From NCBI GenBank assembly GCA_034670405.1, contig JAXDDX010000047.1:2296001-2360000 (forward strand): DNA of 64,000 nt, given 5' to 3'. This stretch comes from Hoplostethus atlanticus. Taxonomy: Eukaryota > Chordata > Actinopteri > Trachichthyiformes > Trachichthyidae. The translations under genes and the position numbers were made by a program. The notes beneath the pieces were generated by a model. The model saw nothing but the letters and a program-made list of their open reading frames with translations. It had not been told where the DNA came from and searched no databases. Position 1 is the first letter of the stretch. Each line of letters opens with the position of its first letter. Shown here in pieces: positions 322 to 54,021 of the stretch.

Positions 322-2618
<2,297 letters not shown>

Positions 2619-27404: not shown

Positions 27405-30400
27405 CAATATTTTTATTGGGTTTACCTTATGCAAGACCATATAGATCTATCCCATTAACATCACACTTAGTTTGTACATTTTGAACATTGCATAAGATCA
27501 TATATTAGAAGTGATTTATGGAGTGATATGAGAACCTTATTCAGCAACATAATCCTTAGGTTGAGGAAAAATGACACATTCATTCCCTCTTGATTACAAG
27601 TATGACCATCTTCAATCATGCATTACGGTGGTATGTGGTTTATGAATTGAATGCATTATCAAAATAAACTGGGCACTTACAAGTATTAGGCTACAGATTT
27701 GATAAGTTTATCCAGCAGATGAAATGATTATCAAAGCCTAATGCTCAACCAGACAACCTATTTGGAAAGGACAATAAAAAGGTAAAGCAGCTGCTGAAAT
27801 AGAGGGGTTAAAAAGCTCAGACCAGAGTATATCAAATGATAAAGTTACAACAGAATCAAGCAAATAGCACTTGCTTTAAATCTCATTGCAACAAAGGCTC
27901 AAAAGGAGACCAAAATAAACCTTACCTCTGCTAAATTTCACCATATTAAAATGCGCTTCACTATCACAAGATTGTCTGCAACGCTCAAGCAAAAGGTTAT
28001 TGGAAATGGATTGAGTATCTTAATATCACTAATGACGTTTAGGTGAATTTCTGTTTATGTGGAGTGCTAGTTGCCATTTGTGCAGTCAAACAAGTCAGAC
28101 TATGTTAAGGTATGTGAGGGAGTGCAAGACACAGTATATAATTGGAAGGCTTCAGAATACTATAGCAAATGTAAACACAGCCTAGCTCTGACAGGAAATC
28201 CAGTCTATTTTGATTGAACCTCTTTGCAGATCTCAGATTTTGCACTTTAAAAGCCCTTGTGTGTATAATATATATATGTATATCAAAAAACATGCATCCA
28301 TACTTTTGTCCCTAACAATATAAAATTGTGTTTTAGTCAAGTGTATATGTGTACGCGTGAGTAAATGGAGGTTTGTGTGTCATTAACAAGTCTGTATATG
28401 TACAAAGTGTGCCAGCAATAAGAAAGGTTCACTCATCCCTGACACTAAGATCAATGTGTACAATACACATAAGACATTGGATTTTGGTCATTGGGAAAAA
28501 GGCAACACTAAATGATTATTTGTGAATGAAATATCCAACCAGTCAAAACCACACGTCAAACCTGAAACAACTTCCTATAAAAAAAAGAAAAAAAAAAAAA
28601 AAAGTGTTCTAAAATGCAGTATCTACATTTACAACATTACAGGCTTAAAAGCATTGTGCACAGTGCTCTTCCCACTGCAGTGCTTTGTAACGCTGTGTAT
28701 GAAATCTACACAATTCAAAATGCTTAGAAGAATCTATCACACTGCAGGAAAAATACATTTTTTTTAATGTAACAGTCAACTTCTTAGCCAGCCAAGGTAT
28801 AGCTTTGTTATTGAATATCAAAAGATGTTCCAGGCATGTTCTCAGTGAAAGAAACCATATTTAGCATCAACCATTTCAATCCTAATTTAGAAATCTCAAT
28901 AGGTCTAGAATCCTGTACAAACAATGCAAAACAGAAGTAAACATTGTCAAGATTTTCTAGCTTTAAAGATCCAGTATAAACAACTTCTATTTGAAGTTGT
29001 GCTTTCTCTACAGTGTACAAAACGTGCAGTTTTAAGAGTTAAATAGTAATATTGGACTTGGAGTATTTACATCAAAAAACAAAAACAAACCAATGGATAT
29101 GAACAGATATTCCTTCACCACCTTCAAATAGTTCCAATCCCCAAACCTCCCACACTAAAAATATGTCCCCTCAAAAAACCTTAATCAAACAAGATGTTCC
29201 CTCTAACTCACAAAATAAACTAGGTTAAGAAAACTCAGAAGTCAATGAGAAAACAAAGACAACATTGTTCCGGACTGCTTGATTTAACAGGAACAAGACA
29301 GGCCCTTGTCATAGGACACTGCGGTGTGAAAAGGAAAAATCACCCTGAAACAGAATTCACATTTGAAACACATTGATTTTAGACAGTTCACTCTAGATTT
29401 GTAAACATGAAGTTCCTCCCTAAAGTAGAAATCAGAGTGAAGACTAAACTGTATGTCATCAAGCGATAAACCTTGAACTATTCAAGTGACAATAAAGAAC
29501 AGACCAGATCGGCTACCAAGTCATTTTCACTGTCGACCTACACAGCTCCAGAAACTGTCTGTTGATGACGGATAAAAGCCTCAGTCCTCGTATACACTTG
29601 TGCTTTAAAACGTTTTGACAATTTCAGTTCCTTAAAAGACCACATGTCCAATTTTTGAACTTTGAACCTGGTTTCAGAAATATTTTGAAAACAATTGAAT
29701 CGTTTTTTTGGTTGCAGTGTGTATAAGGAATGCTTTTAAATATTATCCTCCATAATGTAGGCCGGACAACCTTGCATAAAGCCCATGTCAGAGAATTTAT
29801 TTAACTATACTATCAAATCACACACACATCATAGGTGACAACATTGTTAACATGATGTTTAATGTTTTCTTGCCCTTTGTGAATGTGTATAGTCACAGGA
29901 ACGTTGAAAAGTGTGTACAAAGCCTTAGTTTTAGTGTCCAGTCCATCATGTTTACAAATCTCACTTCAACTGTCCAAGATAAACTCATTTTTGGGGTGCA
30001 CTTCCCATTTAATGGCCCTACTCTTTACATGTGCTAAATAAATGCATAATTCCCTTCTTAACATCTCAATTGATCTAAATAATGAAGACTTTAAGTTTGA
30101 TACTTTGAGTTATAAAGACCATAATGATCCCTTACAAGACCCTTGAGTTGGAGGATATAAGAAGTACTCAACAGAAGACCCTGAGTGAATCATTGGCCTT
30201 GTATGATGATGGCCATATTTTGTAGCATAAAACATTTGAAGATTACAATTCCTTATTTTTACTTGGAAAATAAATCTTGCCGCTAATTCCAAAGGTCCAG
30301 TTTAACTATACAGGCACAAAAAAGTCAGTAAACAGACTTATGTACATCAAGAAATAAAAAAAATGGGAGGGAAAACACAAAACAAATGTATACCCCCCTT

Positions 30401-30474
30401 AAAATCTGCCAACGTTCTTGCACAAAGATGATATGTTTGCATCGTAACACCTGGAGCTCATAACACAGTCCTTT
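27405..30474 (-). other. Probable long kctd5 3' UTR
   Basis: About 3 kb without a coding exon downstream of the kctd5 stop. It ends at a minus-strand AATAAA (TTTATT at 27412-27417). Many AT-rich and TTTTA-type stretches suit a long 3' UTR. The extent is inferred. Confidence 0.4.
28569..28603. repeat. Poly(A)-rich tract
   Basis: Interrupted A run of about 33 bases within the putative kctd5 3' UTR. Confidence 0.8.
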
Positions 30475-33400
30475 TCACATCCGGGAACCCCTTTCCTGAA
30501 GAATCTGCAGAGACAAAAGAGACTTAATGGTATAACGAACAAAAACACAACTTTCCACATGCTCTGCAATGAGTCAGTCAATACCCATTGTACACGGTTC
30601 TCTGCATGTGAGTATTCACACTCACACTAAACTTACTTACTCCTGCAGCAGTGCTTAGGCTCTCAGCCAGTAGCACACACGCATTTAGTCTACAGGCTGA
30701 AGCAAACACACTAAATGGAGTGAAGGGGAAAAGAAAATGCAGGGAGGAAAATAAAGCAGCGTGCTAAAAACTAGGAGTCTGTTTGTAGAGCAACATTTGG
30801 GTCAGTTTACAAAGGGAACCTTGGCAGGTGCAGTCAACCTTGGTCATGAAAAGGCTTGGAGATAATGGGTGAAACACATCCGATTTGTTCAAGCCAAGGA
30901 TAAAAATGAGTCAAAGGGTTTCTCAATATGCGTTCTTGTGTCCTCCATGGCTTGTTTGACATAATATCTAATGGCTTATGTACGATTCCAAAACAAAAGA
31001 ACGCAAAAAGATCCAGAAGAGCCTGGAAATGTACAACCGAGGAGACTTGGCCGACGAGAATGAATGGCAAGCAAATGTTCATTGCGAGTTTGACGCATCA
31101 CGTCCAAAAAGCATAACAGTCTAAAGTACAGAGATGGTTGAAACAGATGGAAAATCTCGCACACGACACAGAGCACACATCCTGTCTCAAACTGTCAGTC
31201 AAAAAAGTGTGAACTTTTGACAGAAACAAGATAAACCTCATCCACTAACGGACTTCATCAGCCAGTGAGACTGCTTTAAAAAAAGGTTTCGAGACACAGC
31301 TACAACAACACAACCTGGTTTCAACGCATACTTGAAGTTGATGGATGCCAAATGTTCCATGTGGCTGCCGCCTTAGGATGCTTCTCTGCGCTTGCTTTTA
31401 TGAGAAGTTTGTTCTCTACAAGACAATTTGTGACACAAGCATCGACAAAAAATTGATTTGGTCTTCTTGGATTTCATCCAAAGTGTAGCAGCTCATCTGA
31501 GCTGATTAGTCTACAGATACACGATGCCCTCCACTGACCAAGGTTGTGAGCATGACAATAGTGACAATACTGAAACATGAAGCTTTTCCTATCAGCTTTC
31601 AAAGAGAGTTTTACCTGAAGAGAAATATTTTGACTGGTCTAAACAGGCACCATCAGGCTTTTGACCTAGCTTTGGCTTTTAACCTTTAAAAATGTCAGGC
31701 CAAAGTTTGAGTCAAACCCAGATTCTGCCCTTTTATACTAATAAAACATCTTTTCGGCTAGAGTTGTCTTTGAAAACAAATGTGAAAAAGCAGTATAAAG
31801 CATGAGGGAAGGTAGGGATAAACTAGTGAGGTATGGTGGAGGGCAGTTGAGCGCTCACCATTGAGTCACCAAGTGCTCAACCCTAATCAGAGTCATTCAT
31901 TTCATAATCCGTCTCTTCATCCTCGCTCTGAGCAACATGCAGCATGCAGACAGCACAGAAGAAGACAACAAAGGCATGTCTCAAAAGAATGGAAATGAAT
32001 GGGGGTGTAAATGTTAGGAAGGAGAATAAGAAGAAAAATAAAACTAATGGGTTATGTTCAGAGGGTGTTTACACAAACAGCCCAATGAAGACTTGGCTGA
32101 GTATCAAAAACACTCTTGCCAATATTACTACTCTTCATTGGACTTCACTGACAGGGGTTCAGTGAACATACATGTAAATAATTCCACAGAACACAAAAAC
32201 ATTAAAAAATAAAAATAAAAAAAGTACAAGAGATAAACAAGGGCACCTTTCTACCAAGCTCAATTCACCGTTCACAACAGTCATAATACACAGACACTTT
32301 AGAACACAGAACATTTTAGATCTCAACCCCTTCGTGTATAGTGAGACCCCTATCAGTCATCTCTAAGAACCAAATGTTGACATGGTGCCACTGAAATGTA
32401 TTACAACAAAGCCTCAAATCTCATCGGCATAATAACAACAATACTAATAATAATACTAATAATGTACAAAGGTAATGTGTGATCTACTTGAAAGACATGC
32501 AGTGTGTTTAAATCTTCATCTCAATAGGAGAGTGGCTCAAGGTTGGTCAGTGTGTTGCTGCCTATGAGGAGAGGGCCCACAAGGGGACTTGCTGATGGGA
32601 GTTTTTATTCATAAGGGCGCGCCTCCTGCTCTGCTCCCAAAGCCTCCTCGCTAATAGCCCCACTAATCCGCTGACCTGTACTCTCATGGTCCTCCAAACA
32701 CGGATTACAATGTTTAGACTTTTCCCCCCATTTCAGGTCAAATCTAACATGACATAAATCTTAAAGCTGGGCTAATGCTATTAGACGCGCAGTCTTTGAC
32801 AGTGAACGTCAAAATAACACTCGCTCTCTTCCGGATAAATCCGAATGGGAGGGTGTTAGCTGTGAAATGTCCTTGACTTGCTTTACTTATCAGATACTAC
32901 TTAACTAACAAATACTTTAGAGAGTTTAAAATATTTTTTTCTGATCACCGTTTATAAAAGGCAGTCTAGTTTAACAGCAGTAGTCACAATGCACTCCTTC
33001 ATGAAGGCTTCTCATCAATAAAACAGGGGTACTTATCAATGTCCCATGGGGACACGTTCATCAATGCAGTGCATTTAAAAACATCCAACACAGGCCATCA
33101 TTCACAGATGTTTGCTAAGGATGGCTTTTCAACCAGCCTCACCACTCATGTACACACACTCACCTTAGCCTTCTCACTGGGCTCACTGTTTGTCCCGTAT
33201 GATTGGTTGTGCAGTTCCTTGGAGACTACACACAGGAACTCGGCTTGGTCCTCATTTCCGTAGTTGTAAGAGGAGCCTATGCTGACCAGCTGGAGAGACG
33301 AGAGAGCAGAGCACAGAGAGAGAATCAGCCTTGGACAGACAAAATGAGGACAAAAATTGGGCTGCTCATGGTGGAAAACCGAAGTGGTGGTGGTGGTGGT

Positions 33401-36400
33401 GATGGGGTTAACAAAAATTCAAAGCAACGTGTACTAGGTTGACAACTAAACAAGAGATGCAAAGTGTCTGCAGGTCGCAGCAAGTCAAATCTTGACCCAG
33501 ACTTGATATATTTAATGGCATTTAAGATGAAATAAGAAATATGATGACCTATCCAAATATAGGTCTTTGTGACTCAAATTAGAAAAGCAGCACAGCGAGG
33601 AAACATATTTTAGGATATCTGAAACAGAATTTAAGACATAAAGGCTATATTTAACTGCATTTAAGACTTTCTAAGGCCTTAAATTTAGAAAATACAATTT
33701 AAGACATTGTACGTCTTTTCAGGACCTGCAGACATGCCAGGATGAAATTCAAAATGAAAGAGGGAATGTATTACATTCACCAAGATCAAAGTGAGGGGGG
33801 GGGGGAAGAAAAAAAAAGAAAAATCAGCAAAAGAGAGAACAGATGGGGTATTATGAAGGTAATTACTGAGAAATAGAAGATGGGAATCTGTGGTCCACAA
33901 TAAGAAATGAATGATTATTAGAAAGAAACAAGGCACAAGGAACAGCAAAAGGTATCAGTACTTCACTCTGAGAATACAAGTACATGGACTCAACCACAGG
34001 GAGCAAACATGCTAGTTGAAAAATCACATGGAACAGTGGGTTTGACTTGATGGAGCCAAGCTCATCGTCAGTGAATGTTGGTACCATTACTTCTAGAGAT
34101 AGCACGTGTAGGATTTTCTCCGATGCTACCATTGTCAAATTAGTCATGATAACCGCTACCTACGTCGTATTCTACCGTCCCTTTTTTAATCAGCTTATTT
34201 TATTATATCTGCTCCCTCCTGCTTATATTGCATAACGATTTTACAGGACAAGAAGGTGAGGATACCCAAATGAAAACATCAATTGGTGTTTTCCGGGTAT
34301 TAGAATGTAATACCAGGGATACAGCAATGAGAAAATCCTACACATAGTATTTTTAAATGGATCTCTAAGACAATCATAGTAACTTCAAATGTTCCTGTTC
34401 CCACTCAAATGTCTAATTTACAAAAGGACACAAAAAGGACATAAGAGGGAAAATTATAAAGGACTATCTTTTTAAAAAACAGCATGCACACAGGTGAATT
34501 TGTAGAATGTCATGCAAACATACAAAACACTGTGCCTTGGATAAACACTGTCAGAAAAACAGTCTCTCTTCCAGCCTTTTCCAGATCGACTGCTTTTAAC
34601 TGTGTGTTAAGTGTGTGTACACTGCAGGCTACATGTATACTCTCTGTACCCAGGTGTGCATGTTCAGACACGCACCGCCTCATTAGCCACTCCTGCCGAA
34701 GACTTGTTGTTGAGAGATCTCACATTAGGAGTCAATGCAGCAAAAAGGCCAAATAATGTCAACTAGCTAGCATGGATTCCTCTCCTCACAATGCTGATGA
34801 TTCAGCGCCACATCCGAAGACCCTCAATGTCTCATGTTGCTTATTTAAAATAACAACCTTCGAAGACCAATGACCATGACACACCTTCACAAGAAAGGGA
34901 CTGTAATTATGGAACCCTGGAAGTGCCATTTAAACCGAGGCAGTAGGTCAGCTAAGCCCGTCTCCCCAGATGACTCTCCTGGGCTGGATACTGAACTTTA
35001 AGCTTTGCATGAGGGAGTGTTTCTAGGGGGTTTCCCATCTGACCTGTGTAAGGAGATTAGAGAGGGTTCAGCTCTGATGGGAGATCCAGTGATCCCTCAA
35101 TCCCTGAGGGGAGATTCATTAACACGCACACACCAACACCCAAATGAGTGTACTTCCCCATCAGAGAAATAAGCCCTTGCTGGTTTTGGCTTAAGATAAA
35201 ACCTCATGTTGAACTGGGTGTCGTGAACTTTGATAATTCACACTTAATGTTCTATTTGAATTATTAGTCAACTTACCTCCTGGGTAGATAGAACAACTTA
35301 GGGTGCTTCTACGTTTCTTTAGCACTTTTACCTCTAATCAACCAGCAGCATAGCTGTAATGGTGTAGCACAGCTCCCAAAATGGACACCTGGCTACGTGC
35401 AAAATAAAGAAAGTTGCTGACAAGCACAAATTGTGAATGGGGTATGAAGAAAAGAAAAAGAAAAGAAAAGCAAAAAAAAAGATCACAGACGAGAAAAAGG
35501 TGTCATGTTCTCTTTGCCCCAAAGGTGAACAAGCAGTACACATGAACAGTCAAAAGAATCAACTCAAAAAACAGCCAACAGCTATATGTCAGGTTGGGAA
35601 ATACGATGGCCTACGGGGTGTGTGTGTATGGACAACATGGGGACCATGCAGTGACCAGCCCATGGACAGAAATTTGTGGGACACACCTCTCCGCTGTTGT
35701 TTGGCAAAGCAGACTCCTCTCCCTTCACCTCCCTTGACACAATCAGCAGAAACTCTGACTGGTGGGCCCGCCCGTAACCTATACTGACAAGCTGCAACAA
35801 CCAATCAGAGCACAGAAGGGATGCCCGGATCATGTATGCAGACATTCAGAAAGATGTGATTTGCTGTTTGGCTTTTTATTTTTATTTTTTTTTCATTTCC
35901 AATATTGAGGATTGGATTTTCTGGTCAATGTGAGCATAGCGGGATGGGTGAAGCACATGAAAGGAGGATTGCTGCTGTGACTCTGTGGGAAGAGCTTTAC
36001 CTGCTCAAACTTCCAGCCGTCAGACATGGTGGACACCATCTGTGTCAGCTCCTCTTCCTGGCACTGCAGGACCCGGTAGACATGCTTCACCGGAGCCTGG
36101 GAGGAGGAGGGAGGGAGGGATGGGAGGTAAGAGGGATGAAAAGCAGAGGATAAAATAATGTTAAATTTCATGAGAAACCTACACAAGTAGATTGCCACTG
36201 GAAGAACTGTACACACCTGTGATATTTTGCAGTCACGTTCCCTGATCTTGTCCTTGATGAGTTTTATTAATGATGTGATGTTGTAGAATTCTGCTTCTTC
36301 TAGCACACCTAAAAACAAAGAATCAAGCCTTTCAAGCTGAGCTCGTCTGTGCCTGCTAAAGATCAGGCTTGGCTGAACACCATGGCGTCCATATTCATCT

Positions 36401-39400
36401 CATATTCCACCGAGAATATTACCTTCCTCTGCCAAGTCCTTGTTGAGCACCAGTTTACCATGCCTCAAGTAGTTGAGCACTGGCCCAAAGTATGTGGGGT
36501 CTCTGTCTATGAGATAAGCACCAGTTTCATCCTGAAAAGCAGAGAAAAAGCAGGATAATATTAATATAACTCCTAACTATATATAGACAGATGAGGCAAG
36601 TTTGAATTTAGGCTAAGACAATTAATAGGCTTGGCCTATACCTTTATCAAACAAAATGTACAAAAACCAAACCGAGCATGTGAATAAAACCGGAAGGCAT
36701 ATGAATTATGAGGCCAGCCCCTGTGGTGATAACCTCTACATGGGCTGAGAAGACATGCACACACACAGCCACACCATGGCTTTGGAATATGGTTTCCCTA
36801 TCCCCACAGGCCTTGGGTTTGATCCTCATTCCTTCACAACCACTGGGTATTCCCCTATTTCTGCAAGTACTGTGATTAGAACGTCTTTGTCTCGTGGGGG
36901 GAAAAGGAGGTTGAAACAATTAGAGCAGAACAGAAAGAGATTTGGAACAGCAGGCTGAATCCACCGAGGGGACCAGGAGGAAGCACTGCTACCTTCGCTT
37001 ACAACGGACAATTAGCCCAGTCTGCTCCACGTTACAGAGTTAGCCTAGCCCACGTGTCAAACAACTTCAGTTAACACCAATCCACAAGAAAAAAAAATTG
37101 TCTTGAACTAAAGACTAAGATCAAAGTCGTTTCATGTGATGTCTGGAGGGCTATGTGTGGATCATATTTATCCACAGGCACATTTTGTGCAATCCACAAA
37201 TGCAACGGGACGTGCAGTTTATCATATGGCTTCAGGAGCAATCTAGACAAATTAAGAGCCCCACTGTTCATTGCAGCTTCCCCAGCATTATTTACACAAG
37301 AACACAAGCATTATTTTCATACTTTCCAGGCCATGACCACAATAAAACACGCAGCCAAGTTTTCACTGACAAACAGAAGTGCACATTCATAGCTAGCTAG
37401 CTCCCAATCACAAGTCCAGGGACTGATGGGCCTCCAACTCGGAAGCCATTAATCTTTCCAATAATGAGAAAAGGTCCCAGTGCATTTTCTTTTGTAATGA
37501 ATCTCTGAACCCTCTTGGCTGTCTGACCTCCTTTCCACGGCAAAAATACCCAACATGAACCCAATGGAGTTCTATTCTAGTCTTATTGCCATGTGGAAGT
37601 TCCTTACATTTCTGCAGTCATTGAAGTTTAACCACCAAGTACAGGTGGAACTACGACAAGGTCACCGCTAAGCAGTTCACTCCATCAAACCAAAGTCTAC
37701 ATACTGCTTAATTTGGCTGCTACCGTCTGCTTTTTCCGACTTTAACTTGAAAAATACAATTCATTCATTCATTCATGTTCCAACTAACACGTTTACTGTA
37801 TTTCTACAAGCATGAACAATTAAGTTAAGAAAAGCAAATTCTATTAAAATAATTCAATATCCCGATTTGATGTGGCATCACAAACATTTAGTCACAGAGT
37901 GATGATTTCCGATTGGCAGTTTCTCCTCTAACTCTGCCGACCACTAGTCAACTTTTCAATAGTTTTGGTTTCAACGGAGAGTTTTAGTGTCCCATGATTT
38001 TCTAAATGCTGTTTCAGAGGCTTTTGCACCCCAACAAGTATACAATTCTGGGATAAACATTGAAAGCTTGTAATTTCTTGGGGCATAAAAATGGCAAATT
38101 TAAAGAAATCAACACAAAATATCTGCAGCTTCAATACAAAAATACTGTCCTTCGAAAACCCATACCGGTCAAATCCTTATGTAAACATGTAGCCTAAATG
38201 TGCACTGAACATTTCTCTAAGCTTTAGAGCTGACATGCTGTGCTGAGGAGAACATTGCTAGACCGCCCTTGGTTCACTGGAGCTGGTCCTCTGGGTGTAC
38301 GTGGAGCTATTGGGGAGTCTCCCCACTTGGGGTGACTATGACCCAGTTTAGAGAGTGTTGGTTATAGGGGCACTGGCTTGTGATTGATGTGGACCCAAAT
38401 ACACAAAGGGGACAGTGTTTTAATTAAAAACAAGAGGCAGTGTCTCTGGGGGCCCAGGCTGCAGAGCACTGGGGAGCACTAGGCAACAAACAGAGGGGTG
38501 GGGACAGTGAGCGTGAGTGAGGGAATAGGACTACCGAGATACAGCAAGGCAGGGAAGGAGACAGCAGGCTCTGAGAATGAGAAAGGCTGAAGAATTGAAG
38601 AGGAAAGTTATTGAATTACGTAAACACAACTATGATAACACACTGTCTCTAAGTAACAGTATGATTATGAAGGGCGAGACCGATAGTGGTCCTGTTATTG
38701 TGGTGGGTGGGCATTAAGATTGTATTGGCTAAACTCAAAGACTATTGAATGACTTGGGCCGCTTGAGATCTGACCATGAACACTGCATTTTATGAGTTTA
38801 CGTGCACGTCCACACTTACAAATGCCTCTTATGCTCATCTTGTGAGTGTATTAGTCAAAGCTGTGTACACATTTAACCCCGCCCTCCAACCACCACCACA
38901 TACACTCATCCACTTTACATTGCTCCTATTGTGGATTACTGCTGGAGATTATGTAGACTGAATTTTGATCACATTTTCCCAATCTGGTTCAGATGATCCA
39001 ACAGCAGTGTGAGCGAAATCCCTCTTTTGTGTGTCCAGACCTAAATAAAACAAAATCCTATGAAACGCAGCAGCATACAATAACCACCAAATCAGGCCAG
39101 TTCAGGGAAGCACAGACGTGCAACCTTGTGTTATATGCTCCTCATTACAAATCCCCACGTACATGATAACTGGCGAATCTCAAATTTTGACTGTGGATCA
39201 AAGTACGGCCTAATCATTACTAGATTCCAAGACTTGAGATAACTGTAGACTGAGGATGAACGTAAACAAAGTCCAATTAGAAGGGTGGGCTTTCAGAGAG
39301 GAAAGCTTCTGTATAATCTCATCGTTCTTCTCCTACACACACACACACAATACATATCCTCCCACAGGAAATACCACAGTGGCCCACCCTTCAAGAACAT

Positions 39401-42400
39401 GGACACATGAACGTTGCAAGTCCATCCTATTATCAACAAATGGATGGATGTTGACTTCTGACTACCGTAAAGGGCGTACATAAATGTTTTTACATTCACG
39501 GTTTCATTCTTAGCAGAGGGCGGAAGTAGCTCTCGCCTACTAAAGCCACAAAACAAGTAGGCTGGCTTAAATGTATTCACTGCTAAATTTCATTTAGCCT
39601 CGCTAATAATAGGCTGGCATGAAACGAGGCCTAATTGTTTCCCACCATAAATTTCAACTGCACACGAGACAAAAACACCATTTATACTGTCATGTGAAAC
39701 CGTTCCAAATAGTGTGCTCAGGCCAAGGATAAAAAGAGCCTTATTAATGCTGGCCACCTTCACTTCAGCTGAGCTAGAATATAAGCACCCTGCGGAAACA
39801 GGGCTGAAAGATGTTGCAGTAGATCTTCAGAGTCACATGACTGTAGCTACTTAGTCTAGCCAAGTGGAAGTCTGATCCTTGTAGAGTAGGAGCCGAAGTC
39901 CCTCTGGAGTACAAGTAGTAATGGCATAGTCAAATCGGCCTTCATCCTCTAAATAATACACACATCACATCAAGGCTGCATTACAGGGAAATTCATATTT
40001 CAAAATATTTAACACTGTCATTTTAGTGCAGGTTTGAACATTTTCTGAGCACACATGATTTTGCAAGGCAACGCCACAAAGTGCATTTAGCTGAAAGATT
40101 TATGACAGAGGAATGTTTCAGGCACTAAATGGACAACTCCTTTTAGAAGACTCCTAAAAGCTTCCCTGTCATAATGAGAGGCAGTTAAGAGTTTCACGGC
40201 TAGGCTGGCCAGCAGGAAATCACTGGCACCCAGAGCTTTCTCTAGGTGGAGAGCAGCAATGTGAATCAGAGGCTTAATGTAAAATATTTACTCTGCTTAA
40301 AACTCAGTCATCAAGGAGGCCCAAGTTCAAGCTGGAGACATTTTGGTTCATTGCAACACAAGGCTAGGATCAATCTTACGTGTCCGGCTTTTATGAATGA
40401 AGTGGCCTTGGGCTGGTATGGGTAACCGGCTGGAGCGGTCTTGAGTGGCACCTGATTTGCCGACGGCACTCTGCAGTGTTGCGTTGAGCAGTGACTGTGT
40501 GGAGGCAGCGCAGGAGGAGATGATATCACCGTTAAATATTTACGTTGCCTCCCACGGTGTGCTCAGGCATGACATACAATGTGAACACAGCATTAAATGC
40601 GGCCATATTTCTTACACGCGGCACAGAGAGAACTCTCTCAGCCAGCAAATGGAGATGAATGTGAAAAGAATCAGATGTGAAAGGAACAAGAATCTTGTGT
40701 GATGGAATGCTTGAAAAATTGATGCCGCTCTCAAAACCAGAAAGCTGGATCTCCACTTGACTAGTCCCGAGTTGTGAGAGAGGAGTAGTCCGCCATTTCT
40801 CCTTCAAAAAGGATTGATCTCAGCATCTCTCAGCATCTCTCAGCTTGTTGACTGGACTATTGACAATTTTTTGACAACTATATCTGTTTAAAGACACTTG
40901 TGACATGAATTAGTCAATAGAGGCTAACAAACTACTTCATCAGCATTTCAGACTGACAACAATATCACACTAATGTGATAGTATAGAGGGGCATTTGTCA
41001 ACTTTGAGATAGACAATTAAAAAAAAACTAAAGAAAACTAAAAAAAGATACTTGTATAGATAAAATTGTCTGTCCGCTGTGGTGACTGGCTGTGCATGTG
41101 AGTGCACTTCCTCCACTTCCTCCCTGGTCCACCCCAATGTGCAAAACAGGTTCCAGTCAACAACATGAATAATGCAGTGCTCCTCAAGAGTCCAACTGAA
41201 GCACGTCAGCCTGCATGACTGAGAACTGAACCACTCGTTTCCTTGGCTGGGAAACACAACACTGCATTCGCCAAAAACAGAGCACTTCAGTTAGCCATCA
41301 ATCTTCTGAGCTTCCTGTTCATGTGCAGGGTTGTGTGAGGGGAAGGAAAAACAGGCCTTCTTAGCTGTCATTCGTGTGTGAGATGAAATCATGTAAACAT
41401 ATATAGATTAACTGCAAGTAGGGAGTAAAACGATACCTTGTTCTATAACAAGAGCTACCTCAACAATATGCACTTTAAGACAGGGGAGTGAGATAGCTGG
41501 GCTGAGATAGCTGATCATGGCTGGGTAAATTGACACAAAAAACAAGATGATTATTCAGAGATTAAGAGATTTGCATGAAAATACGAGTATGAGGGGGGTA
41601 GAGGTGTAGATTAAAATGTGTAAATGGGCAAAAACAATGAATAATAATGGACCACAGAAAAGGAGGGAGCAAAACATGGCACAATGCATTATACAGACAC
41701 TATTACATGGATACTTGACTGTGCTGGGAGGACTTCGGCCTAAAGCACAGTGCTGTTAGTGGCAGATGGACAAACAGAGAGGTGCCTGATTCTCACCCAA
41801 TGGAGCCATTCAGGGAGATGAGTGACATCATCCCTGGGCTCTTGGGTGTCAGCACCTCACCCCACTTGGCAATGACTCGTCCTCATTAGGAGAGGTTCTC
41901 CACAGAGCCTGCTTATTGCAGACCAACAAAGCGAGTGACAGACTAACCCCCCCCCCCCCCCCCCATCCCAAGACAAAAAAAAAGCACGGATAATAGGTTA
42001 GTTTTATCTATAGGTTATTTGATAAGTTTACAAGAAAAAACAAACTCTTGCATGTGAACATTGTACAGGGCGGATTACTTTGTTATCACTTAGCTGACGT
42101 TTGACACATTGACGAGTGCAACGCAATGCAGTGGCCGTGATGGGGAAAGTTGTCAACCACGGTGGCAAGTTGCTGTTTTCACTAGAAAAGCTGTGGATAA
42201 AATACTAGACTACTAAAGTTAGATAATTCCATTGAGCGAACATATTGGTAATTTACTTTGGTCATTGCAGGACTAGGTATAGTCACTTTTTAAGCGAGGT
42301 GACGTTAGTTATGCGAGCTCCAGCAACATTACACACAATCTAGCAAGCTCGCGTCATGTGGTGTGACTGTCGGAATCTAGCTAGTTTAGCGGGTTAATGC

Positions 42401-42841
42401 TAGCTAGAGAGCTACACATAATCTAAGCTAAGTAACTAAGACACACAGCACTAGGTTTTACAGAACTGAAAAGGTGACTACGCGATTGAGAAAGAGCAAC
42501 TGATACCCAACCCGCTCGGTGAACACTAGACCGAGGAAATTCTCTTAAGTTTGACAGAAAATTGGAGATACTTCGCTTCCAACTACCAAGCTAACTAGCT
42601 CGACTAGCTTAGCATTTACCTTGTCGGAGTCGAGCTCGGGGTCAGCTTGGCTCAGTCTGTACAGAAATGATTTTGGATCTCGGCACAGCGTCTGTCTTGT
42701 TGTTAAAAAATATGTTCCCCCGACGTTCAGGCGAATCCATTTTGATGCCCCGACACTAGATGAAGTATTTGTCTCTGCCGGAGAATGAGCCAAACATCTC
42801 CGATTAACGGAGCCGCTTGTTTCGGAGCTGTTTTCTGCCAT
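30475..42841 (-). CDS. kctd5: BTB/POZ domain protein KCTD5
   Basis: Pentameric substrate adaptor for CUL3 ubiquitin ligases; known targets include G-beta-gamma. Canonical coding exons (minus): 42620-42841, 36423-36531, 36217-36308, 36001-36096, 33164-33289, 30475-30504; 224 aa (human 234). The BTB domain starts at [20 protein letters not shown] (about 33-52) and continues through [31 protein letters not shown] and [14 protein letters not shown]. The C-terminal domain covers [20 protein letters not shown] to [11 protein letters not shown] and ends ILQERGSRM, identical to human KCTD5. An in-frame upstream Met at 42901 would add 20 residues, but the family start fits 42841. Intron 1 is 6.1 kb. 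Two further exons in phase 0 (35687-35791 and 31883-31927) point to alternative isoforms. Tandem with pdpk1, as in human 16p13.3. Confidence 0.93.
31883..31927 (-). CDS. kctd5: kctd5 alternative terminal exon (acidic tail)
   Basis: Preceded by a good acceptor (minus strand, TGTTGCTCAG) and in phase 0. It encodes [14 protein letters not shown] and a stop. It would replace the canonical tail ILQERGSRM (exon 30475-30504) after either version of exon 5. Not recalled from mammalian KCTD5. Expression is unproven. Confidence 0.45.
   Translation of the reverse strand, partial: SEDEETDYEMNDSD
33391..33411. repeat. (GGT)n microsatellite
   Basis: Seven GGT-type units just upstream of the kctd5 exon 33164-33289 on the minus strand, within the polypyrimidine side of that intron (CCA on the transcript). 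Confidence 0.7.
33465..33734. mobile_element. 270-bp TIR element (MITE candidate)
   Basis: Perfect 12-bp inverted ends: TGTCTGCAGGTC at 33465-33476 and GACCTGCAGACA at 33723-33734. The interior has several TTTAAGAC units. No ORF. It is in a kctd5 intron, 180 bp from exon 33164-33289. A fragment of the same family seems to occur at 4117-4160. Confidence 0.6.
35687..35791 (-). CDS. kctd5: kctd5 alternative exon 5 (exon-duplication copy)
   Basis: 105 nt, phase 0 at both ends, bounded by TTGTTGCAG and GTGTGT. It encodes [20 protein letters not shown] followed by [15 protein letters not shown]. It aligns with canonical exon 5 ([20 protein letters not shown], then VVSKELHN...): the LVSIG, Q-EFL, VS and E positions are shared, and the codons for LVSIG differ only at synonymous sites. 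Lies 209 nt downstream of exon 4 and 2.4 kb upstream of canonical exon 5. Skipping or including it keeps the frame. Confidence 0.75.
36532..42619 (-). other. kctd5 intron 1
   Basis: 6.1-kb intron. It contains a GGACCCAAATACACAAAGGG-type stretch near 38391 that may be an old repeat, a C-run at 41947-41964, and a short 11-bp direct repeat (CTCAGCATCT, 40819-40845). No coding exon, RNA gene or well-bounded element was found. Confidence 0.5.
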
Positions 42842-43359
42842 CCCTCTTCTCCGCCCTCGGCTCTGCCTGTGTGGCTGACAGGAAATATCTCCACGATTCA
42901 TGCAAAGCAGGGTGCCAGCTCCTCAGCCACTCCTACTCCCACTCCACCAGCAGGGACACACACACTAGCCGAGATTATTCTCCAGAAAAGAGGTCCCTTA
43001 ATGATGCTTAATCTACTGAGGTTTCAATACTGAGTAATGATTTTAGCTACCGTGGGCCTGCTCAATTAATTTGTAGTTAGTAATGTCATAGCATCTGAAA
43101 ATGTTATGGAAGTAAAATATGTCTCAGAATGCTGTCCAAGGGAGAGGGTGACATATCATTCATATTTCGTTTTATGTACAGCATTTCAGGATCATTACAT
43201 AGATAATTTGCTATGAAATATGCTATGTATAAGATCGGAGAGAGCTCATAATTGGTCGTCCATCACACACAGCAAGTCTCTCCTGCCACGTCTCAATTAA
43301 AACACTTTTTAAGTAAACTCCATATCACACAAAATAAGACATTCATGATGGGCCGGTAC
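42842..43359 (-). promoter_or_regulatory. kctd5 5' UTR and promoter region
   Basis: GC-rich near 42780-42990, suggesting the kctd5 5' UTR and promoter. AGCTAACTAGC-type motifs flank the start exon on the downstream side (42290-42612). The minus-strand open frame extends upstream to 42901. Confidence 0.4.
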
Positions 43360-52017: not shown

Positions 52018-54021
52018 TCATGGCTTTGATGGATTCTCTTCTTCATCACTTGATACTTTTCTTGATTCATCGCGGGTTTCTGTTTTCTCGTCTTCCGCTT
52101 CATCTTCGTTATCATCCGAGACATCAGCTTCCTCACTAGAATCATCCTCATCTTCAGTGGCACTAAAAATTGAACTCAGAGTTAAATGATATAACATACA
52201 ATCAGATTAGCTCTATCTGCAAATAGAAACAGTGGGCCTGAGGGACTTCCTCACTTTGATAGCAGTCACATCAGCTATATCAAAAGTCTTACCATCGGGG
52301 TCTGTTGAGATTCATACATTCTCTTCCAGAGTCGACATCAAATGGATCTGCAAACAAGATAGATTAACTTGCATCAAAAGAAAATTGCCTTAACAGTAGA
52401 GGTCGCAACCTCAGCAATACAATATATCCCTCACAGAGAATGGGGTAATAGTCCAGAGATGTAAGAAGCTCCTGCCTACTCAATGCAACAGGTGTTAATA
52501 TCCATGTGTAACATTTCTGGAGAAAGTTGCCAAGAATTCTGGGTGTGACATCACATTTCATAGCTAGTTTTATCTTTTGGATGAATTAACTCTGAATAAT
52601 AAACAATTCATAGGACTTGTATTTGTGCGTCTCAAAATGAGCTATGTTCTAACGATCTTCATATCCCAAAAAGGAAAACAAGTGGTAAAATGAATAATCT
52701 GAGATTTTCATTTTACCAAACTCCTCCTCCTCTGGAACAGCACTGAGATACTCCTTCTCTACAGAGAGCAGCTCTTCCTCTGACTGGCATGATGCATAGC
52801 GCTCCAGTAGAAATTTATTGAGTTCCAAGAATACTCTTCCCCACTTGAATTTATTGAGCAGGATCACTGCCAGGTCCTCAAAACCTGCAAAATCAGATTT
52901 CATGGATTTTAACTGCCATAATTTAGCAGGATTTACCAAAATCACTTATTAAAATAACACCACATATTGTTAAGTAACTACAACAAACACATATCAGCTC
53001 AAGTCTTACCTACAATGCAGAAGGTGGCAGCAAAAGCTTCAACACAGGATAACTTGCAAGGCTTGCCGTAATTGACTGGGTTTGCAGCTACAAGGTAGGG
53101 CAGTAATCTAGGATGAGAGCCGACCATCTTATTGAAGGGAGTCTCCTCAAGTTTGGCCCAGGAACAATCAATGACTGCCAGTCCATTCTGGGCCACAATC
53201 TCTCTGTGCATAAAAGGGCCACATATCAGCGATTTAGCCACAAATTATTTCATTCCAATTTGTCACATCAGACACACACAAACCCACTGGGTACTTTCAG
53301 GATACAACTAATTGGCTAGGCATTACTACCTGACACTCTTTATGCCTGAATGACAAACCTATAAGTTCTTACCATTATACAGTCTACTGTAAATGGAGAC
53401 ACCCCAATGTGCTAAAAAATACATGGTCTTATATATCATGATTATTTATTACAATAATAAACAACAAATACGTTCTTTGCAGGCTAGTAATGACTTGAAT
53501 GGGTGCAGTATGGAAGTGGGTAACTCACAACACACCTGTCTGCTGGCGTTACATACTTTGTGCCCATAGGACTCAGTATGAGGCCATTAAATCTCTGGTT
53601 AAGACGCAGGCTGCGTACAAAGCCCTTGCGTACCAACTTTCTTCCAGTACAACGTTTAGGATCACAATGTCTTAGATCCCACATGGCAAGTGGGCAAGGT
53701 AGTTTCACCTGAAGAGCTTCTGCTCCCTCCTCTGGGTGAAGACTTGCTGAAAAACATAGTGGACAAAGTGAACGTGGATAACTGTAACAACCTACACAGC
53801 ATAATGTAAACACATACACACATCATGTACTCTGCTTTTGTTTGATAATAATAATAGCAAAAGCATAATTTTGTATTAACAACAGTGATGTCAGCTTTAC
53901 CTTCTAATGCAGTATGGACTTCTTCTGTGAAAGTCTCTAAAGATTTCCCCTTCATTTTGTGCCGTCTATCTTTTCCCTTGTTCTCAGGACGCATAGATTT
54001 GCCCTGTTTCTTTGGTCCCAT
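52018..54021 (-). CDS. tsr3: 18S rRNA aminocarboxypropyltransferase TSR3
   Basis: Transfers the 3-amino-3-carboxypropyl group of SAM to N1-methyl-pseudouridine of 18S rRNA, a late cytoplasmic step of 40S maturation. Six coding exons (minus): 53901-54021, 53536-53746, 53010-53203, 52717-52884, 52293-52347, 52018-52162; 297 aa. The basic N-terminus (MGPKKQGK...) is followed by the core: [73 protein letters not shown] and [15 protein letters not shown], all family signatures. The C-terminal exon is a Glu/Asp/Ser-rich tail, typical and variable in eukaryotes. Head to head with gnptg, as in human 16p13.3. Confidence 0.95.

Follow-up and report, generated by a model that had tools for sequence, protein, structure and literature searches.

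Tandem duplicated exon substitution events, in which neighbouring homologous exons are used in a mutually exclusive manner, are already known as a class (PMC9741552, PMC5740500), and the available portion of PMC9741552 reports that more than 90% of the human events have bony-fish orthologues. Within the KCTD2/5/17 subfamily, splicing is described in the accessible extracts of PMC5469494 for KCTD17, which occurs as KCTD17.2, KCTD17.3 and a trichoplein-binding isoform; the same extracts record a single KCTD5 transcript among cloned RT–PCR products from mouse brain. For KCTD5 itself, PMC12021292 reports binding of G-beta-gamma and a restraining effect on cAMP sensitization in neurons of the striatum. 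Here we describe a second, diverged exon 5 in a fish kctd5 gene and compare it with these systems.

The window, by which we mean the whole 64,000-nt stretch of Hoplostethus atlanticus DNA that was analysed, carries a complete kctd5 gene on its minus strand, in which six coding exons join to encode 224 residues (gene model). The features considered below are as follows.

42620..42841, minus strand: kctd5 exon 1, 74 codons from the ATG, start of the BTB domain (translation, gene model, Pfam BTB_2)
36423..36531, minus strand: kctd5 exon 2 (gene model; KCTD5 chains of the PDB)
36217..36308, minus strand: kctd5 exon 3 (gene model)
36001..36096, minus strand: kctd5 exon 4, encoding the beginning of the C-terminal domain (phmmer against KCTD5 chains, best E 7.4e-17; gene model)
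35687..35791, minus strand: alternative exon 5, 35 codons, phase 0/0 (homology, pS/pN, neutral simulations, genome-wide match to itself only)
35645..35650, minus strand: TGCATG starting 37 nt beyond the last base of the alternative exon, possible Rbfox site (motif scan)
33164..33289, minus strand: canonical exon 5, 42 codons, phase 0/0 (phmmer to residues 184-225 of the 234-residue KCTD5 chain, E 3.5e-20)
31859..31927, minus strand: candidate further exon, a 14-residue peptide plus stop, donor ATG/gtgagc (sequence reading)
30475..30504, minus strand: last coding exon, ILQERGSRM plus stop (gene model)

Both the canonical form (E 5.6e-24) and the form carrying the alternative exon (E 5.2e-24) match Pfam BTB_2, and the best solved relatives of the latter, at 217 residues, are the KCTD5 chains of the PDB (E 1e-101). 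With a BTB_2 domain followed by a KCTD5-type C-terminal domain, as judged by Pfam and the PDB chains, the gene belongs to the KCTD2/5/17 subfamily. The ILQERGSRM ending is also present in the kctd2-like locus of this genome and in one KCTD5 PDB chain. Two related loci lie in the same genome, separate from kctd5, at C86:1254963-1256622 and C47:180398-183884; we take them, by their sequence features, to be kctd2 and kctd17, respectively. Elsewhere in the window, just upstream of kctd5 and on the same strand, lie parts of a kinase gene whose end is pleckstrin-like (48234-45570, minus strand), presumably PDPK1 by its motifs, in what resembles the human PDPK1-KCTD5 neighbourhood. Two open reading frames with Ribo_biogen_C and RLI Fer4-like domains (52652-53819, minus strand) presumably form a TSR3-like gene, and a protein-kinase match at 1598-2026 (plus strand) falls slightly under the Pfam cut-off (29.7 against 31.7 bits).

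The alternative exon (35791-35687, minus strand) spans 105 nt and 35 stop-free codons, has both its borders in phase 0, and is flanked by an AG acceptor and a GAG/GTGTGT donor. It lies 209 nt past exon 4 and 2397 nt ahead of canonical exon 5. The original prediction of a 105-nt segment at 35687-35791 with canonical splice sites and phase 0/0 was borne out in its coordinates, length, translation and borders. By a basic matrix of general splice-site frequencies, its donor ranks in the 98.9th percentile of GTs on the minus strand and its acceptor in the 89.8th percentile of AGs on that strand, as compared with 96.4-100 for the acceptors of exons 2-6. Weak acceptors are common among regulated exons.

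Local alignment of the alternative and canonical exons gives a BLOSUM62 score of 59 over 25 residues with a single four-residue gap, and the homology begins at the first base following the AG acceptor. That intron sequence resembles exon 5 by chance might be argued from the fact that only these 25 residues align, and with a gap. Against this, the runner-up match to exon 5 scores 41 when all six frames of the window are compared, none of 1000 dinucleotide shuffles of intron 4 reaches 59 (maximum 49; scored in three frames, with splice sites not demanded), and the match starts exactly where an exon would; a chance match is therefore very unlikely and we reject it. As a control, the second matches of all other kctd5 exons score no more than 32 (minus strand, 30001-43000). 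The predicted homology to canonical exon 5 at 33164-33289 thus stands, as does the claim that the first five codons differ at synonymous sites only (three sites, all synonymous). The remainder of the tail, beyond the 25 aligned residues, has no convincing alignment to exon 5. The pair has the marks of tandem duplicated exons, namely homology of neighbouring exons, the same phase, intact splice sites and a frame that survives exchange. Taken together, these data identify 35687-35791 as a second and diverged version of kctd5 exon 5.

Divergence between the two exons is concentrated at synonymous sites. The 21 best-aligned codons contain 23 differences, of which 14 fall at third positions, with pS 0.86 and pN 0.21; pN rises to 0.39 over all 35 aligned codons because the tail is not convincingly alignable. 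Among the residues invariant in all three exon 5s of kctd5, kctd2 and kctd17, the alternative exon retains 11 of 16 (21 aligned columns, with the four deleted residues excluded). We modelled neutrality by letting the copy drift freely while the original changed silently only, with 20,000 runs per divergence. When success meant an open frame, a score of at least 59 and the observed third-position divergence for the whole exon, with intact splice sites not demanded, eight divergences gave 0, 0, 0, 9, 28, 75, 43 and 6 successes per 20,000. A narrower simulation on the 21 codons never succeeded at a rate above 0.0007 over the seven divergences used; judged by codon positions and with the open-frame condition dropped, the figure was 0.0032. 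Since these codons were picked post hoc, the whole-exon simulation is the fairer of the two. The duplicate thus carries the signature of selection on the protein that the original prediction had claimed, in comparisons made inside one genome.

These results bear directly on whether the segment is a pseudoexon, that is, a decayed duplicate that has lost its splicing and remains open by luck. Its weaker acceptor and its unalignable tail would fit such a history, but a neutral copy succeeded in at most 75 of 20,000 runs even without any demand on splice sites, and synonymous saturation implies long exposure to mutation; we regard decay of this kind as quite unlikely. A copy of exon 5 whose function was lost only recently is possible. 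The same saturation relative to canonical exon 5 led us to reject a recent duplication or an assembly artefact.

The duplication appears to be old, since its synonymous distance falls within the range seen among the exon 5s of kctd5, kctd2 and kctd17 over the same 21 columns (pairwise pS 0.95, 0.70 and 0.99). This age is loose, because only about 15 synonymous sites are involved and exon 4 of the three genes gives pairwise pS of 0.81, 0.45 and 0.76. Over 21 residues, the alternative exon shares 14 identities with kctd5 exon 5, 14 with kctd2 and 12 with kctd17. From sequence comparison, the likeliest origin of the alternative exon is an ancient tandem duplication of exon 5, with the copy retained under protein-level selection.

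A search of the 633-Mb genome (1161 contigs) with the alternative peptide and a 301-nt region found no match besides the query itself, in a loose first pass that weak relatives may escape; a repeat element as the source of the exon was rejected on this match to self only. Four loci (L022-L025) were also scanned for the alternative exon, with no match of at least 36 except exon 5 of L022 (kctd2) and of L023 (kctd17); L024 and L025 presumably represent KCTD9-like genes, a pair that would be in keeping with a teleost. In L023, an acidic stretch past exon 5 (about 2996-2886, minus strand; VTETQEEEAAKAEEEEE...) resembles the acidic kctd5 tail described below in character. Searching viral and prokaryote contig collections with kctd5 yielded no confirmed relative. 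An Rfam RNA was rejected, with 0 matches at gathering scores. A 116-residue open reading frame runs antisense to the exon (35437-35787, plus strand); it contains 0 Pfam families and was rejected as a gene, being probably due to chance.

We propose that kctd5 exon 5 was duplicated in tandem long ago and that the copy remains a functional coding exon, with exon 4 joined to either the alternative or the canonical exon 5. Either choice would run in frame to the last exon. Overall, we think it probable that the ancient duplicate is still functional and is chosen instead of the canonical exon, to give KCTD5 of 217 or 224 residues. The bony-fish orthologues of more than 90% of the human events of this class (PMC9741552) count in favour of this reading, whereas the single KCTD5 transcript cloned from mouse brain (PMC5469494), the alignment of only 25 of the 35 residues and the pN of 0.39 over the full exon count against it. 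Exclusive choice would not be enforced by the reading frame, because both exons are multiples of three in phase 0/0 and their double use keeps the frame. The alternative exon could therefore be a cassette added to canonical exon 5, yielding a 259-residue KCTD5 with the segment present twice; the 2397-nt gap between the two exons would likewise impose no steric exclusion. A doubled segment would, however, be hard to accommodate in a compact pentameric domain, and we judge such an addition unlikely.

Candidate signals for a choice between the exons lie nearby. The TGCATG at 35645..35650, which we read as a possible Rbfox site from the motif's usual meaning, is one of seven in the 12.4-kb kctd5 gene by motif scan. 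At that density any 100 nt would contain about 0.06 copies by chance, so a TGCATG near the alternative exon is suggestive only, as are UGC motifs. Control through long complementary intron arms was rejected: when three pairs of intervals were compared for exact intron complementarity over 12 nt, A/T runs alone were found.

A further kctd5 exon is possible at 31927-31859 (minus strand), judging from its sequence features. Its peptide would be an acidic 14-residue tail, and its stop lies 24 nt ahead of a gtgagc donor, so that nonsense-mediated decay would not be expected for a transcript including it. Its acceptor ranks in the 79th percentile and has two TGCATG motifs a short way upstream, and no AATAAA or ATTAAA was found between this exon and the last coding exon. 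In mouse, the available material of the ASCOT study (PMC6952364) lists RT–PCR validation primers for a novel Kctd5 exon, which resembles our finding in being an unannotated alternative exon of the same gene. The forward primer listed there translates to PYGTTS, inside exon 5 of a KCTD5 chain; the novel mouse exon should therefore sit downstream and should not be the alternative exon 5. As far as the listed primers indicate, it may correspond to the 31927 exon.

Canonical exon 5 makes up about half of the KCTD5 C-terminal region (residues 184-225 of the 234-residue chain). The alternative exon retains LVSIG and EFLxxVSxE. The loop between them reads YGRAHQS in place of 11 canonical residues, which makes it four shorter, and it lacks the canonical acidic residues, turning from acidic to basic; the tail sequence also differs. 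The original prediction had placed the swap in the C-terminal domain that contacts substrate, and this placement agrees with the literature as far as the accessible text extends: KCTD C-terminal domains are reported to impart substrate specificity (PMC5664961), and every KCTD5 C-terminal domain is described as touching blade 1 of G-beta (PMC13361646, a 2026 review). It is a reasonable inference from sequence that the alternative segment changes the partner surface. In the accessible text of PMC5664961, KCTD5 constructs with the C-terminal domain bound CUL3 about 50-fold better, so the exon swap could also alter CUL3 affinity.

In the proposed mechanism, both isoforms would have the BTB domain and the beginning of the C-terminal domain in common, and because of the shared BTB domain the two would presumably also share pentamer formation and the CUL3-binding surface. 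Downstream of the shared part, a shortened loop and a replaced tail would change the partner or substrate surface. We infer that the alternative form is used in transcripts, that it is used exclusively of the canonical one and that its partner or substrate surface differs. It might form pentamers together with canonical KCTD5, with KCTD2 or with KCTD17. In the portion of PMC10531988 available, the KCTD5 C-terminus matters in contacts with KCTD8, 12 and 16, and mixed oligomers are formed. One variant of the functional duplicate proposed here, compatible with it, is a dominant-negative isoform that enters pentamers and cannot bind G-beta-gamma. The size of exon 5 relative to the C-terminal domain, the capacity of KCTD5 for mixed oligomers (PMC10531988, same portion) and the change of the loop from acidic to basic all speak for this variant, which we hold only tentatively. 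A broader proposal, attractive but also doubtful at present, is an ancient KCTD5 splice switch: by swapping half of the C-terminal domain it would, in certain cells, either redirect the CUL3-dependent turnover of free G-beta-gamma or block it. Its effects would be graded, because the isoforms would mix within pentamers.

If the functional duplicate is real, splicing could set the specificity or activity of the KCTD5 E3 adaptor, and the alternative form would be a natural variant for mapping substrate-reading residues. If the age of the exon matches its synonymous divergence, other vertebrates should have retained or lost the alternative exon 5.

Among the literature matches listed by a full-text search that covered few subscription papers, no second KCTD5 exon 5 was reported. 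A full-text search for KCTD5 with a microexon gave no match, KCTD5 was absent from the matches listed for exon duplication, and the term KCTD (at a word start) is absent from the main text of both PMC9741552 and PMC5740500. The class of tandem duplicated exons is established, and a case in KCTD5 was not found among the matches listed. In its likeness to the events described in PMC9741552 and PMC5740500, the kctd5 pair consists of neighbouring homologous exons of the same phase, in which core residues are kept, a loop is changed, the duplication is old and selection acts at the protein level. It differs in that those exons are used exclusively, whereas exclusive use of the kctd5 pair, known so far from one genome, is part of the mechanism proposed above. 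Closest within the subfamily are the KCTD17 variants, which in the accessible extracts of PMC5469494 likewise have the C-terminus, and probably the partners, altered by splicing; those variants change C-terminal tails, whereas the homologous kctd5 exon would replace exon 5 inside the C-terminal domain.
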